A stretch of DNA of 64,000 nucleotides from assembly GCA_005116955.1 (NCBI GenBank), contig SWDI01000002.1, forward strand, positions 265,187 to 329,186, read 5' to 3'. Numbering within the stretch: the stretch's first letter is position 1; each line of letters begins with the position of its first letter. Of this stretch, positions 1 to 50,118 are shown piece after piece. The translations under genes were made by a program, and so were the position numbers. The stretch is from Nitrospira sp. Lineage in GTDB: Bacteria > Nitrospirota > Nitrospiria > Nitrospirales > Nitrospiraceae. The notes under the pieces were generated by a model. That model saw only the letters and a list, made by a program, of their open reading frames with translations, had not been told where the DNA came from and searched no databases.

Positions 1-98
1 ACATACGCCAATACAACAAGCAGCCCAAACCCGTGAAGTGGAAGTACTTCGATCCATCGCGACGAATTACTCCCGAATCAATCGTTACAGGCCACTAG
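1..98 (+). mobile_element. 3' part of a MITE-like element (partial copy)
   Basis: These 98 bases are identical (98/98 by eye) to the reverse complement of 49344-49441. That is the end portion of the complete 196-bp inverted-repeat element at 49344-49539. The copy ends at 98 with the terminal repeat GTTACAGGCCACTAG; beyond it the two loci share no sequence except a chance C. The rest of this copy lies left of the window. Its reading frame is open and runs straight into the helicase gene. Confidence 0.8.
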
Positions 99-2788
99 CC
101 GAGGAGCAAAACTGGCTTCGGGAGGTCCTTTTCGCCGGGTGGATTGGCGGGGGATTGCAGGAGGCATGGCAAGACTTGCTGGCCGCTGTCGAGACCTTGG
201 CAAGTGAAGCTGGCACGGCTCACCGACTTATCATGGCACATGGACCGGATCTCCCGCAGGGTCGTCCGGTGGATGAAGCAGCTTTACTGCTCAGCGAGAT
301 CGTAGCTTTCCTTGAATCTGGTGGGTCTTTCGGTTTGAAGACGAAACTCACTCGCCGGGCGTGGCATCAGCTCATCGAATCCTGCCGCGTAGATGGTCGT
401 GAGCCTCAAATACTGGATGAGTTTCGTGCGTTGCATGCGAGAGCGCAGTTGGAGGAAAGCCGGAACCGCTTCACCGCCCGCTGGCGTCGCACGGTTGAAA
501 GCCTCGACGGGCCGGCGGTTGAAAGCCTTGGGCGCTCACCGGAACGCACAGCTCAAGGCTACGCTGTGGAAATACGCACGCGTCTTGAATGGCGGAGTGC
601 TGTATGGGAGCCACTGATCGGTGAATTGCGTGCTGTGGGTTTTCGCTGGGACATGTGGCTAGCAGCTCATCCACCCATACCTGGAGACTATGGCGAATTG
701 ACGCGAGTGCAGCGTGCTGGTTCGCATGGGTTGGTGGAGATTGTAGAAGCACAGGCGGCGCTGCTCAGGCAAGCGGAATTATCGGCGGCCTTACAAGCCC
801 AGCGAACCTATCTGGCAGGGTTCCCACAAAGCGATATTGCTTCGGTACTGCTCCAGGCGCAGGACACATGGAATGTGGACTACTACGAGGAGGCGTGCCG
901 CGAGATTGCACGGCTCGAAGGTCTCCGCGAGGTGTACGAAGCTCGTAACGTTCTCCTCGAAAAGCTGGAGACTCCCGCACCTGCATGGGCACATGCTATC
1001 GCGAAACGGTACAAGCCGCACGACGTTCCGCTGCCACTGGGCGATGCGGCTGCAGCCTGGCGCTGGCGACAGTGGCTTCAAGAGTTGGAACGGCGCGCAG
1101 CAGTTTCGATGACGGAACTCCAAGAACGGCTCGACCGAACGGAGGACGAATTACGGCAAGTTGCGGGGCAGATCGTCGAGCAAGAGACATGGGCAGCGCA
1201 GCGTGAACGCACAGGACTGCAAGAACAGTTGTCGTTGATGGGGTTCGTTAAGACACAAGCAAAAATCACGAAGACGCGTCGTGGCGTGAGAGACGCGGAG
1301 TTGATGCGTGAGGCAAGACGTCTCCTCGCTGAAGCGCGCCGGGCGGTGCCAGTGTGGATCATGCCCTTGAACCGTGTGTACGAGAGCTTCGATCCGCGCA
1401 ATACAAAGTTCGACGTGGTGATTATTGATGAGGCCAGCCAGAGCGATGTGACCGCGCTCGCGGCACTGTATCTCGGGCGCGAGCACGTTGTAGTCGGCGA
1501 CAAGGAGCAGGTCACACCCGATGCCGTGGGCCAGCGAGTGGATGAGGTTCAACGGCTCATTGCCACCGACCTCCAGGGCATTCCAAACGGGCATCTCTAT
1601 GATGGGCAGACTTCTATCTATGACCTTGCGGAAACGGCATTCGGCGGTGTGATCGCATTGCGCGAGCATTTCCGCTGTGTGCCGGAGATCATTGAGTTCT
1701 GCAATCATCTTTCTTACAGTCACAGCATTCGACCTCTGCGTGAGCCGTTTTCGGCAAGCGTGCGCCCGGCGCTCGTGGCCCATCGCGTGCATGGTTTCCG
1801 CGATGAACGGAGCAAGATCAACCAGGTCGAGGCAGAGGAAATCGCGTCGTTGGTCTGCGCGTGCCTGAGCGATGCGGAATATGCACAAAACGAATCGAAG
1901 CGTCCAACAAGCTTCGGCGTCATTTCGCTGCTTGGCGATGAACAGGCCTTGTTGATTGAGAATTTGCTCCGGCAGCGGCTGTCACCGGATGTCTTTGAGA
2001 AACACCGATTGCTCTGCGGGAATGCGGCGCAATTTCAGGGTGATGAACGAGATGTCGTCTTTCTCTCAATGGTCGATGGACCGCCGGAGGACGGACAACT
2101 TTTTTATCGCGACGCTGGGCCGAAAGATCTTTATAAAAAGCGCTACAACGTCGCGGTGAGCCGCGCTCGTAATCAGCTTTGGATCGTGCATTCACTTGAC
2201 CCAGAAATTCATCTCAAGGGTGGCGATCTACGCCGCCGGCTCATCGAGCATGCACGTGATCCACAAGCGATTCTTCGAGCGATGGAGAATCACAGCAAAC
2301 AGACTGACTCGGTGTTTGAAACCATGGTGCTCCAGCGACTCCTCGCAGCCGGTTACCGAGTGCAGCCGCAGTGGCCGGTCGGTGCTTACCGAATTGACCT
2401 CGTGGTGGAAGGGCAAAACCGACGCCTCGCTGTGGAATGCGACGGCGAGCGGTGGCACACACCAGAGCAGCTTCATCGTGATCTTGAACGGCAAGCGATT
2501 CTGGAAAGGCTTGGCTGGGTATTCGTCCGCATCCGCGGCAGCGTCTTTTTCCGCACCCCCGATGCTGCAATGGCCACAGTGTTTTCGAGACTAAATCAAC
2601 TTGGTATTGAGCCAATTGGTGCAAACGAACAGTACACGCCTAACCCAGTTCAGCCCTTGGTGGACAAGATAAGAAGAGCAGCTGAGAAGATCCGTCAGGA
2701 CTGGAACAATGAACAACTGAACGAGGAGGAGAATAGCGAATATGGACATGGAAAACGCCAAACAAGGCGTTCCACCGGAAATAGATGA
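2..2788 (+). CDS. Truncated SF1 helicase with C-terminal Vsr/DUF559-like nuclease (Hhe-like), 5' end replaced by MITE
   Basis: The frame is open from base 2, so the true start is left of the window; GTG at 38 is only an internal candidate. Counting from 38, residues 459-468 hold the Walker B box VVIIDEASQS. Motif III-like GDKEQ follows, then QGDE (motif V) and VAVSRAR (motif VI). From about residue 764 there is a restriction-like nuclease domain with RIDLVV and AVECDG. No Walker A (GxGKT) is present, nor the DUF4011 region that full proteins carry N-terminally. The first ~32 visible codons are MITE sequence (1-98), and the helicase part begins inside the segment that normally lies between motifs Ia and II. 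Family knowledge links DUF4011-helicase-Vsr proteins to phage defence. ATPase activity is unlikely without motif I. It is either a remnant or a fused shortened protein. Confidence 0.8.
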   Translation, partial: HTPIQQAAQTREVEVLRSIATNYSRINRYRPLAEEQNWLREVLFAGWIGGGLQEAWQDLLAAVETLASEAGTAHRLIMAHGPDLPQGRPVDEAALLLSEIVAFLESGGSFGLKTKLTRRAWHQLIESCRVDGREPQILDEFRALHARAQLEESRNRFTARWRRTVESLDGPAVESLGRSPERTAQGYAVEIRTRLEWRSAVWEPLIGELRAVGFRWDMWLAAHPPIPGDYGELTRVQRAGSHGLVEIVEAQAALLRQAELSAALQAQRTYLAGFPQSDIASVLLQAQDTWNVDYYEEACREIARLEGLREVYEARNVLLEKLETPAPAWAHAIAKRYKPHDVPLPLGDAAAAWRWRQWLQELERRAAVSMTELQERLDRTEDELRQVAGQIVEQETWAAQRERTGLQEQLSLMGFVKTQAKITKTRRGVRDAELMREARRLLAEARRAVPVWIMPLNRVYESFDPRNTKFDVVIIDEASQSDVTALAALYLGREHVVVGDKEQVTPDAVGQRVDEVQRLIATDLQGIPNGHLYDGQTSIYDLAETAFGGVIALREHFRCVPEIIEFCNHLSYSHSIRPLREPFSASVRPALVAHRVHGFRDERSKINQVEAEEIASLVCACLSDAEYAQNESKRPTSFGVISLLGDEQALLIENLLRQRLSPDVFEKHRLLCGNAAQFQGDERDVVFLSMVDGPPEDGQLFYRDAGPKDLYKKRYNVAVSRARNQLWIVHSLDPEIHLKGGDLRRRLIEHARDPQAILRAMENHSKQTDSVFETMVLQRLLAAGYRVQPQWPVGAYRIDLVVEGQNRRLAVECDGERWHTPEQLHRDLERQAILERLGWVFVRIRGSVFFRTPDAAMATVFSRLNQLGIEPIGANEQYTPNPVQPLVDKIRRAAEKIRQDWNNEQLNEEENSEYGHGKRQTRRSTGNR

Positions 2789-2991: not shown

Positions 2992-3516
2992 ATGGATAAA
3001 ATCACAATCGCCGATTGGCTCATGATCTTTGCCGTTTTACTAGGCCCAATAATCGCTGTCCGCCTGACTCGTTATCTTGATAATAAGAAAGAGATTCGTG
3101 AGCGCAAGTTGGCAGTTTTCAAGAAATTGATGGCAACGCGCGCGTACACAATCTCATGGGATCACGTCGAGGCATTAAACCGCATCGACCTCGAATTCGA
3201 CAAAAAGGAGAAAAACGAAAAGGCCGTTATCGAAGCCTGGAAAGAATATCTCAATCTGCTTGGAAATAAGCAGCTAACACCTGAGCAATGGACTGTGAAG
3301 AGGGTGGATTTGCTCGTAGAGCTACTTCACAAGATGGCCATCGTGCTCAATTATGACTTTGATAAGACTCATATTAAGAACTCCTCATACTCGCCTATGG
3401 CACACGGTGAGCTTGAAGAACAACAGACCGCAATCCGAAAAGGCGTGATAGAGGTCCTTGAAGGTAAACGACCTCTTCCACTGTTTGTAACTAATTTACC
3501 TCGAGGGGGAAGCTAA
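2992..3516 (+). CDS. DUF6680-like membrane-anchored protein
   Basis: The product has 174 residues. One N-terminal membrane segment (about residues 8-26, WLMIFAVLLGPIIAV) is followed by a basic stretch and a soluble helical region with the motif LMATRAYTISWDHVEALNRI. That motif and layout match my memory of the DUF6680 family, whose function is unknown. The start is supported by GAGGGA about 7 bases upstream. It lies 200 bp after the truncated defence helicase on the same strand, so it may be an accessory gene of that locus or independent cargo. Its AT-richer, Lys-rich composition differs from the core genes to the right, which fits a transferred segment. Confidence 0.65.
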   Translation: MDKITIADWLMIFAVLLGPIIAVRLTRYLDNKKEIRERKLAVFKKLMATRAYTISWDHVEALNRIDLEFDKKEKNEKAVIEAWKEYLNLLGNKQLTPEQWTVKRVDLLVELLHKMAIVLNYDFDKTHIKNSSYSPMAHGELEEQQTAIRKGVIEVLEGKRPLPLFVTNLPRGGS

Positions 3517-10088: not shown

Positions 10089-10137
10089 GGTTGTCCCCTC
10101 TGTTGGACGTCAGAGCACCCCAATTCGAATATACTTT

Positions 10138-10938
10138 TCATCGCTTAAAAAATACCCCACTGTTCTGCAACTCACGCCTGACCGCCTCGTATTGCTGCAG
10201 ACGTTCCGCGACATCCGACACGTCTTCAGGACGGTCAACTCGCAACGAGGCATGTTTGGTTTCCCACACCCGGATGCGAATCCCATGATCCAACGCACGG
10301 AGCTGTTCAAGCTTCTCGGCATCCTCCAAACGACTGGTCGGCAACGCCGCGAATCGCAGTAAGGTCTCCTTCGTATACATGTACAAGCCCAGATGGATGT
10401 AGTGGAGCCCTCCGATCACCTGCCCTCCTGGCTCATCACGGACGAATGGGATCGGAGATCGAGAAAAGTACAGGGCCTCGCCTTTGGCGTCCGTCACGAC
10501 TTTGACCACTGCGGAATTGTGGAGATCCTCTTTAGGGTCCATGACCCGCTTCAGCGTCCCTATGCTGACACCGCTTTCAAGAAACGGTTCAATAAGATCG
10601 GTCAACAACTCGGGGTTCAGTGGAATCTCATCGCCCTGTAAGTCCAAAAAGTACTCTCCCGCAAATATGCGAGCCACAGCGGCGACCCGGTCCGTCCCTG
10701 TTCGACAATCACCGGCAACCATAATCACACGCCCACCAAACCGCTCAACGGCATGTTTGATACGCTCATCGTCAGTTGCGACCAACACATCAGCAACGGC
10801 ACGGCAGGCCACAGCCTGTTCATAGACATGTTGAATCATCGGCTTCCCATTCAGCTCGACGAGCGGCTTACCCGGGAACCGTGAGGACCCATAGCGGGCT
10901 GGAATCACAACCGTGACAGACCGTGAACTTTTATTCAT
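10138..10938 (-). CDS. kdsB: 3-deoxy-manno-octulosonate cytidylyltransferase
   Basis: KdsB couples KDO to CMP, the activated sugar for lipid A core assembly. Starting at ATG 10938 the protein begins MNKSSRSVTVVIPARYGSSR, the nucleotidyltransferase N terminus with the PARYGSSRFPGKPL motif; it also has FLDLQGDEIPLNPELL and GLHYIHLGLYMYTKETL. It has 266 residues, close to the family's ~250. The frame is open 74 codons further upstream, but that region is the end of hldE1. The start overlaps the hldE1 stop by 8 bases, so translation is probably coupled. Confidence 0.96.
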   Translation of the reverse strand: MNKSSRSVTVVIPARYGSSRFPGKPLVELNGKPMIQHVYEQAVACRAVADVLVATDDERIKHAVERFGGRVIMVAGDCRTGTDRVAAVARIFAGEYFLDLQGDEIPLNPELLTDLIEPFLESGVSIGTLKRVMDPKEDLHNSAVVKVVTDAKGEALYFSRSPIPFVRDEPGGQVIGGLHYIHLGLYMYTKETLLRFAALPTSRLEDAEKLEQLRALDHGIRIRVWETKHASLRVDRPEDVSDVAERLQQYEAVRRELQNSGVFFKR

Positions 10939-11998
10939 CTCCAAATGCCTCAGACAATTGCTTCGGCAAGACCGTCGCGGTGCCGACCATGCCCACCACG
11001 ATCCCGGCCGCATAGTTCGCCATGACTGCTCCGGTCTTGATGCTTGCTCCAGCCGCCAGCGCCAGCGCCAAAGTTGCGATGACTGTATCGCCTGCACCAG
11101 TGACGTCGTAGACCTGCCGAGCCTTCGTCGGCAAATGCCACGATGCGCCATTGCGCTCATACAAGCTCATGCCTTTTTCACCGCGCGTAATCAGGACGGA
11201 CTGACACCCGAGACGCTGCCGAATCATCACGCCGGCTTCGTCGATCGTCTGGTCATTGTCTCCGTGCAACCCGGAGGCTTGAGCCGCTTCAAGATGATTT
11301 GGCGTGAGCACGGTGACGCCTTTGTAGTAGCTGAAATGTTCGACCTTCGGATCGACAATGACCGGAACTTTTCTCAACGCAGCAAGTCGTATGAGATCGG
11401 ACATGAGTGTCGGCGAGACGACGCCCTTGGCATAATCCGACACCACGATGCAGGACAACTCTCGAATCCGTGACTCCACATACCGGAGAATCTTTTGCCT
11501 CAGCGCGACTTTCAGTTCGCTCCGTCCCTCGATGTCATACCGAACAATCTGCTGGTTATGCGCGATCACGCGACTTTTTCTGGTCGTTGGACGATCATGA
11601 TCGATCACCACCCCCCCGCGGCTTGAGCGTTTGTTGCCGAGCTCCTTCATCAACAGACGCCCGCTTTCATCCGACCCGATCACACCGCAGAGATCGGCCT
11701 TTCCGCCAAGCGCCAAAATATTGTTGAACACATTCGCCGCCCCACCAAGCCGGAGAGATTCCGACTCGACATGAACGACCGGAACCGGAGCTTCAGGGGA
11801 AATCCGGCTGACCCGTCCCATGACATAGTGATCGAGAATGAGGTCGCCGACAACGAGGATCGATGCCTGCGGAAATCGCTGAAGATACTGTCGGAGCGCC
11901 TTAGGCGACAACGCATCACTCTTCCCATTCGAGTCTGCGCTCGGAAGGGAAGAGTCGCTGCGTTTCGTTATTGAATCGCCTTTCCGAATCGTTCCCAT
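10931..11998 (-). CDS. rfaE1: D-glycero-beta-D-manno-heptose-7-phosphate kinase (RfaE domain I)
   Basis: This PfkB-family kinase makes heptose-1,7-bisphosphate for LPS inner core. It shows ILVVGDLILDHYVMGRVSRI, the substrate loop APVPVVHVESESLRLGGAANV and the catalytic DVTGAGDT near the C terminus. The product (355 residues from ATG 11998) ends after the kinase domain, so the adenylyltransferase half of bifunctional HldE is absent and must be encoded elsewhere. The start overlaps lepB by 31 bases. The first ~35 residues are polar and poorly conserved, so a later start is possible. Confidence 0.9.
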   Translation of the reverse strand: MGTIRKGDSITKRSDSSLPSADSNGKSDALSPKALRQYLQRFPQASILVVGDLILDHYVMGRVSRISPEAPVPVVHVESESLRLGGAANVFNNILALGGKADLCGVIGSDESGRLLMKELGNKRSSRGGVVIDHDRPTTRKSRVIAHNQQIVRYDIEGRSELKVALRQKILRYVESRIRELSCIVVSDYAKGVVSPTLMSDLIRLAALRKVPVIVDPKVEHFSYYKGVTVLTPNHLEAAQASGLHGDNDQTIDEAGVMIRQRLGCQSVLITRGEKGMSLYERNGASWHLPTKARQVYDVTGAGDTVIATLALALAAGASIKTGAVMANYAAGIVVGMVGTATVLPKQLSEAFGDE

Positions 11999-12737
11999 CT
12001 GACCCACTCCGTCCAATTTCCCTGCCCATTCCAGGACCAATAGATACGGAACGCTCTACCGCGGATCTTTTCTTCGCGCACATAGCCCCAAAACCGGCTG
12101 TCCAGACTTTGGTCGCGATTATCGCCCATCACGAAATACGATCCATCCGGAACCGTCACTGGTCCAAAATTATCACGGGGGTTGATCGTACCGTCGATGA
12201 CGCCGGGATCGATTCGTTGCGTGAAGGCTTTATCGTCGAGTGGCTGGCCGTTTACAAGGACGCTCTTATTCTTCAGTTGGACGGTATCCCCTGGCAGACC
12301 GACAATGCGCTTAATGAAGTCTTTCTCTTCATCCTCGGGAAACCGAAACACGATGATGTCGCCCCGCTGCGGCTTGCCGAACGTCACAACCGTTTCGGAC
12401 GTGTAGCAATTGAGCGGTGGGAAACTCCATAGCACCTTACAATCCGTCGGCCACTGCAGGCCATAGGAGAGCTTACTGACCAAAATATGATCGCCGATCT
12501 GCAAGGTCGGAATCATTGATCCTGAGGGAATCTTAAATGCCTGCACGACGAACACGCGGATGGCAAATGCCAGGAGCATCGCCACAATGATCGCCTCCGC
12601 ATATTCCCGGACAAGAGACTTCTGCCTCGATTGGTCCGTGTTGTCGGCGAGTTTGACCTCCGAGAGCGTGGCCTGGTCTCCTCCCCCACGCGGAGCGCCT
12701 GACAACTTATCCGCATTCCTTGGATTCTGATCGAGGC

Positions 12738-12741
<4 letters not shown>
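11968..12741 (-). CDS. lepB: Signal peptidase I
   Basis: LepB cleaves signal peptides at the periplasmic face of the inner membrane. The 257-residue protein has a charged N terminus, one clear membrane segment (about residues 47-68) and the catalytic dyad: Ser75 in [10 protein letters not shown] and Lys144 in [12 protein letters not shown]. Box [18 protein letters not shown] is also present. It overlaps lepA by 4 bases, which suggests translational coupling. The lepA-lepB pair is a classic arrangement. Confidence 0.97.
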
Positions 12742-14537
<1,796 letters not shown>

Positions 14538-49024: not shown

Positions 49025-49348
49025 ATGCACGCCTCACAACCCGAACCAACAGACCAACTCACCGTAGAGATTGATCGAGACCTTGAAGATATTGTACCGA
49101 TCTTCCTAGATAATCGGAAAAAGGATGTCCAGACACTTCGAAGCGCACTGAGCAAGCAAGACCTCAGGACCGTTCAAACTCTGGGCCATCGCATGAAAGG
49201 CGACGGAGGCGGATTTGGGTTTGATCGAATTACTGAAATCGGAGCGGCAATGGAGCGCGCGGCACAACTCGAGGACCACTCAACAATCGAACAACATATT
49301 GTACAGCTGGAAGACTTCCTCAAACACGTGACAGTTGTCTACCGCTAG
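49025..49348 (+). CDS. Hpt-domain phosphotransfer protein
   Basis: The 107-residue protein is a single Hpt bundle with phospho-acceptor His55 in LGHRMKGDGGGFGFD. It starts two bases after the hybrid kinase stop, so it is its likely relay partner. The stop codon TAG (49346-49348) lies inside the CTAG at the edge of the MITE-like element. If CTAG is the target duplication, the protein end was unchanged by insertion. Confidence 0.9.
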   Translation: MHASQPEPTDQLTVEIDRDLEDIVPIFLDNRKKDVQTLRSALSKQDLRTVQTLGHRMKGDGGGFGFDRITEIGAAMERAAQLEDHSTIEQHIVQLEDFLKHVTVVYR

Positions 49349-49486
49349 TGGCCTGTAACGATTGATTCGGGAGTAATTCGTCGCGATGGATCGAAGTACT
49401 TCCACTTCACGGGTTTGGGCTGCTTGTTGTATTGGCGTATGTGCTTGCCGTTGCAGTTCCATGCGTTCGCGGTTAGTCAGTTTCAT
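49280..49486 (-). other. Reading frame carried by the MITE, running out antisense into the Hpt gene
   Basis: Inside the element an ATG at 49486 follows GGAGGG (49496-49491) and encodes MKLTNRERMELQRQAHTPIQ and onward to the element end. There is no stop in this frame within the element, so it continues 20 codons antisense to the Hpt gene before stopping at 49280. The same peptide is fused to the helicase at the left edge. It may be the remains of a transposase N terminus. Whether it is translated is unknown. Confidence 0.5.
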
Positions 49487-49539
49487 CGCGCCCTCCATAG
49501 GCGCAATTATACTAACTATTTAAGTGTTACAGTCCACTA
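49344..49539 (-). mobile_element. MITE-like element, complete 196-bp copy
   Basis: The ends CTAGTGGCCTGTAAC (49344-49358) and GTTACAGTCCACTAG (49525-49539) are inverted repeats matching at 14 of 15 bases. CTAG at both edges may be a 4-bp target duplication (a TA duplication inside it is the alternative). The element carries a promoter-like box, a ribosome binding site and a 5'-complete frame, but no transposase. Another copy of its distal half, identical over 98 bases, is at 1-98 in opposite orientation. Confidence 0.8.
49506..49511 (-). promoter_or_regulatory. -10 box inside the MITE
   Basis: TATAAT on the minus strand lies 20 bases before the element's ATG. The terminal repeat supplies a weak -35-like TGGACT about 19 bases upstream. 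Transcription would leave the element leftward, antisense to the Hpt gene. Confidence 0.45.
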
Positions 49540-50118
49540 GAGGATGGAGCACGCGACCTTGTTCATCCGACCCTCAATTTCCATCGGCTTCGAACAGTAG
49601 TTCCCACATCGGCAATCATTCGAAAGGTTCCTCATCCTCAAGCTAAAACCGGATATTCTGGAGGTGATGATCGCTGCAACACATAGTCGATTGAAAGTAT
49701 CAACTGTGTCCTGATAGTCCGGTCCAATATAGCGATAACCCTGTCCGAGAAATCAGAAGCGGTACATTTCCATCAAGATAAAACACAACTCTAGCCTACC
49801 TTGATTCGAGAGGTCCCAGTCTGACCAATTTGGTAAGAAGGATCACGATCGCCATAGGCCATCCTGCGATCACAGGCATTGCCCCCGCCGAGGGGACATC
49901 AAGACGAGAGCTTTGGAATGCCCTATTAGGATGATGGTATCTTCCGTTCTTGTGTGATCAAGTACTGGTGGAGACTCTGTAACAGATTGTGTATAATGAG
50001 CCAAGGGAAACGCGGCTCTACATTCCTCCCCGTTCTTCGGCCGCAGCAGCGAGTTTGCATGCTCAAGTGCAGCAAATTCTGCGGGATCCCGAGGTCGCGG
50101 TCCCGATGTCCCATGAGT
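49540..50118. other. Gene-free region before tRNA-Ala, with a -10 box
   Basis: About 580 bases contain no frame with coding character. A perfect TATAAT is at 49992-49997, again in the context TTGTGTATAAT as before htpX, and could start a transcript with about 115 bases of leader before the tRNA. The stretch 49540-49980 is comparatively AT-rich and shows no recognised feature; it may be the remains of the insertion site or of a decayed gene. Confidence 0.4.

Follow-up and report, generated by a model that had tools for sequence, protein, structure and literature searches.

A Nitrospira gene for a defence-like helicase-nuclease, very likely inactivated by recent insertion of an IS630-family element

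Results

A large accessory gene of a Nitrospira genome, encoding a defence-like SF1 helicase-nuclease, has very likely been inactivated by the recent insertion of a full-length IS630-family element. The window, by which we mean the whole stretch of 64,000 nucleotides analyzed here (C2:265187-329186 of a 3.65-Mb genome in eight contigs), opens at the first base 3' of a 100-N scaffold gap (L009:9901-10000). From its second position, a frame of 928 codons is open (window:2-2788), and it runs without break from element sequence (1-98) into helicase sequence that begins at 98, just as the preliminary description of this DNA had it. The helicase sequence represents the 3' part of the gene (~896 codons, window 98..2788, forward strand), and the corresponding 5' part lies outside the window at L009:7910-9806 (C2:263096-264992), both limits being set by the continuous frame at the empty site and by uninterrupted homologues. 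This 5' half is read as a 637-codon ORF just left of the gap (L009:7910-9823, that is, C2:263096-265009), which comprises the N-terminal region, a Walker A motif (GPPGTGKT), and the first of the two RecA-like halves; between this ORF and the N gap sits the left end of the repeat whose right end is window 1-98. The CTAG target occurs at window 95..98, where the host gene resumes, and again at L009:9803-9806 to the left of the window, and when the flanks are joined at a single CTAG, they form a continuous frame of 1528 codons with no other stop or frameshift. Both halves of the gene therefore persist, parted by the element, and the earlier proposal that the insertion had removed the 5' half is contradicted by the intact half left of the gap, which places Walker A upstream in the same gene with the host frame continuous across the empty site.

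The motifs of the two halves complement each other. Inside the window, Walker B (motif II) is present as DEASQ in the sequence (1427..1441, forward strand), followed on the same strand by AAA_12 (PF13087), the C-terminal RecA-like half of the helicase (1649..2188; profile match, E=5.8e-13), and by a REase_MTES_1575 (PF18741) nuclease domain of DUF559/Vsr-like type with its ECDG motif kept (2315..2593; E=4.4e-30), so that Walker B and the nuclease domain had been rightly reported as retained. Walker A was absent from the helicase part inside the window, which bears out the earlier statement for the window but not for the gene, whose GPPGTGKT lies in the 5' half across the gap. The element divides the ATPase core, parting Walker A from Walker B, and the catalytic motifs are intact in both fragments. 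In the joined flanks and in intact homologues alike, Walker A, Walker B, AAA_11/AAA_12, and the PF18741 nuclease domain belong to one protein, of which solved structures match the helicase core only (Sen1-like and related helicases). Neither the 5' half nor the intact homologues matched DUF4011 in profile search; because the intact family is without this domain, none was lost here, and the DUF4011 region thought to be missing was never part of the protein.

Close uninterrupted homologues of ~1510-1560 codons were found in six congeneric Nitrospira genomes, and in each of these homologues a single open frame contains Walker A, DEASQ, and ECDG; two of the loci are labelled as Nitrospira MAGs. 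The gene is accessory, with close full-length copies in only a few of the 79 genomes of the genus, and none of the relatives examined has the split in common. The closest homologue, that of genome G010, can be aligned to both flanks of the insertion, with a 3-nt overlap, and has left-hand genes in common with the window genome. The site reads GATACTGGCCGAG in G010 and GATACTAG / CTAGCCGAG in the window genome, and G010 differs from the inferred empty site by one synonymous change (CTG/CTA, Leu). Since the two relatives read at the site carry CTGG where CTAG must have stood in the window genome, they match the empty site only if that one synonymous change is allowed for.

Several further features of the locus were recorded in these comparisons. 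The helicase gene is 92 and 86% identical to that of G010 (L009:7781-9804 and 10094-12792, respectively, versus L063), whereas the left-hand genes are only 80.5% identical, which suggests that the helicase gene may have been exchanged between these Nitrospira lineages after their split. Recombination between alleles at the IS site was ruled out, since the sliding identity to G010 has no step at the junction. Codons ~1015-1050 of the joined gene (near window 1210-1340) diverge from all relatives, with 60-67% nucleotide identity, whereas over the same codons the relatives agree with G010 at 81-84%; this in-frame divergence looks like a local replacement, a frameshift pair being ruled out by the preserved frame. 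A contig binned as Chthoniobacteraceae (L070, CANIWM010000029.1) carries a homologue with 75% identity to the 3' part, and this reflects either cross-phylum transfer or misbinning of the contig. An ISNCY transposase gene and a Gp49/HigB-like/Xre-like toxin-antitoxin pair (L009:4552-6716) lie between the conserved left neighbors and the helicase gene, and a DUF6680 protein is encoded directly downstream of it (window 2992-3516).

The first 98 nt of the window (1..98, forward strand) are the right end of an IS630-family element, inclusive of the CTAG with its duplicated TA, and recur as a repeat at many places in the genome. They are 94% identical to nt 1010-1107 of a full-length relative in genome G011, an IS of 1107 bp with an open IS630-type transposase, and the left 98 nt of the element are 80% identical to the left 98 nt of that IS. 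Frame 3 of window 1..98 encodes the transposase C terminus, IRQYNKQPKPVKWKYFDPSRRITPESIVTGH, with its TAG stop in the target; both the N- and the C-terminal coding ends of a putative IS630-type transposase are present, and the interior falls in the gap. The copies in which both ends are present have CTAG on either outer side, and the terminal inverted repeats are imperfect (GTGGACTGTAAC / GTGGCCTGTAAC). Judging by the title of Tenzen and Ohtsubo (1991), as cited in PMC2170065, IS630 prefers the TA in CTAG. The element is like other members of the IS630 family (Tc1/mariner superfamily) in its TA duplication within CTAG, its imperfect inverted repeats, and its single predicted transposase gene, which takes its stop codon from the TAG of the target, but unlike them in that its interior is unassembled in this genome, so that it was identified from its ends and the full-length relative. 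Neither a transposase body nor a full-length copy of this IS subtype was found anywhere in the assembly; a single IS630 transposase exceeds the family cut-off (C2:967457), and it belongs to a different element.

The preliminary description had taken the insertion for a MITE. That a mobile element interrupts the gene is borne out; the element is not demonstrably a MITE, its 98 bp being the right end of a 1.1-kb IS630. Of the G011 element, most copies in this genome align chiefly with nt 1-98 and 1010-1107, and most break off 95-98 nt in from either end, where an N100 gap or an inconsistent joint follows. Several copies have exactly 100 N between their ends. At an N100 gap unrelated to the element (L058), the contig ends on both sides share 99 identical bases, and this 99-nt overlap together with the ~98-nt stubs is what a de Bruijn assembly would leave at k of ~99. 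The MITE look is therefore best explained by repeat collapse and is very probably an assembly artifact, although the small variation of the cut points (95-98 nt) counts against it. The gap beside the window would then hold the ~0.9-kb interior of a full-length IS630, and a second pair of ends within the window, joined without gap as a 98+98-nt unit of 196 bp (49344..49540, reverse strand), is probably another collapsed full-length IS. At three other loci (L012, L013, and L052), a single IS end adjoins an N100 gap with unrelated sequence on the other side, and these gaps are possible misjoins or deletions adjoining the element.

It is still conceivable, if improbable, that the gene is split by a true MITE of ~196 bp, derived from IS630 by internal deletion, and that the 100 N stand for a scaffold join with nothing in it. 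Contiguous copies of ~191-196 bp do occur in the assembly (L006, L007, L008, L010, and L053; four belong to this subtype, one to a second), and the indefinite length of the gap is compatible with a short element at the site. However, the copies do not have the same junction throughout, other copies being gapped or reaching into the transposase: the gapless joints vary by a few nt (98+98, 98+97, 98+97 with a 1-nt overlap, and 96+96 with a 1-nt overlap) even though the flanking 96-98 nt are 100% identical, and in two subtypes, 7-20% apart in sequence, the cut points gather at 98 nt. Some gapped copies, divergent enough to be distinguished from the rest, also contain more transposase sequence, those at L055 and L062 reaching 124 and 134 nt into the gene before the N gap, and in two other Nitrospira genomes (G109 and G090), the element ends are ~1.1 kb apart, all of which argues for collapsed copies of the full-length IS.

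Discussion

Our results point to an IS630-family IS of ~1.1 kb that would have jumped recently into an accessory Nitrospira gene, duplicating the TA inside CTAG. The 1528-codon frame would thereby have been cut into a 637-codon 5' ORF with Walker A and a 3' ORF extending from Walker B to motif VI and the MTES_1575 nuclease, the latter probably devoid of a start signal of its own. Because the ATPase core is split between Walker A and Walker B, loss of function is the most likely effect. A short-read assembly with k of ~99 would have kept only the ~98 nt of each IS end that lie beside unique sequence, hence the resemblance to a MITE. Of the fates earlier proposed for the open frame, that of a dead remnant agrees with insertional inactivation.

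The age of the insertion can be approached through the substitutions in the two halves. Between this gene and its homologues, dN/dS is 0.10-0.20 in both halves because selection acted on the intact gene. In the 5' half, the ratio of non-synonymous to synonymous changes is 27:47 on this lineage versus 12:30 on that of G010, and in the 3' half it is 27:118 versus 27:110. Decay after insertion was considered and set aside, since non-synonymous changes on this lineage are not in excess, and because these counts are not raised relative to G010, the substitution pattern suggests that the insertion is probably recent.

The same figures enter into the question of whether the fragments still work. Both might be expressed and come together again as a split helicase-nuclease, or the 3' fragment might work as a nuclease on its own, which would fit either element length; the two halves are open, free of further lesions, and with the substitution counts unraised and the catalytic motifs intact, they would permit it. 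Yet intact halves are equally predicted by a recent insertion, the split is absent from the relatives examined and lies within the ATPase core, no promoter-like site was detected in window 1-600, and there is no good ribosome-binding site at GTG 38; the GGAGG upstream of TTG 176 lies within the old coding sequence. We consider such continued activity very unlikely, and slightly more so in the specific form in which an IS630 insertion gave rise to two separately made, reassociating fragments or freed the nuclease half for another role. The least credible reading, which we regard as practically untenable, is the earlier one of a deleted 5' half and a new N terminus contributed by a MITE. The frame is indeed open from window position 2, but the 5' half exists next to the gap, and the element's reading frame is not that of the transposase. 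Within the last 98 nt of the element, frame 1 has a stop, frame 2 is open (HTPIQQAAQTREVEVLRSIATNYSRINRYRPL), and frame 3 is that of the transposase; in the full-length relative, this off-frame reading stays open over 96 codons. With one in three frames of the IS end open into the host, read-through into the gene is about a one-in-three chance event, and the supposed element-encoded N terminus is the transposase 3' end read accidentally out of frame, for which chance overlap suffices and which has no recognizable start signal.

As to the function of the intact gene, a role in phage defense is plausible. The protein had been described as Hhe-like, which holds insofar as it is a large SF1 helicase-nuclease, but it is only distantly related to Hhe. 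Like the Hhe anti-phage protein (NF042953 / PDLC02194), it combines SF1 helicase motifs and a long insert with a nuclease at the C terminus; unlike Hhe, it is without DUF4011 and measures ~1530 amino acids as against 1797-1911 for the Hhe profiles. The Hhe model matches the C-terminal part, with E values of 2.5e-39 for the part in the window and ~1e-47 for intact homologues, and the NF042953 scores (134.6 bits and 160-163 bits, respectively) fall far below the curated cut-off of 2000. The best-scoring defense models for an intact homologue are ProA (NF058533; E 3e-65) and the PADLOC candidate PDC-S37 (E 4e-64), which differ from this protein in that the match covers only part of it; ProA reaches 210-220 bits, far below its curated cut-off of 1500. 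A literature search for papers on Hhe/DUF4011 and on IS disruption of defense genes returned nothing specific.

Together, these data carry a caution for the reading of draft genomes, because a gene that seems to be cut short at the edge of a window may be whole across a scaffold gap, and false MITEs, about twice as long as the k-mer, may arise where short-read assembly collapses IS copies that are in fact full-length. In biological terms the case would be an ordinary one: one more accessory defense-like gene switched off by an insertion sequence.
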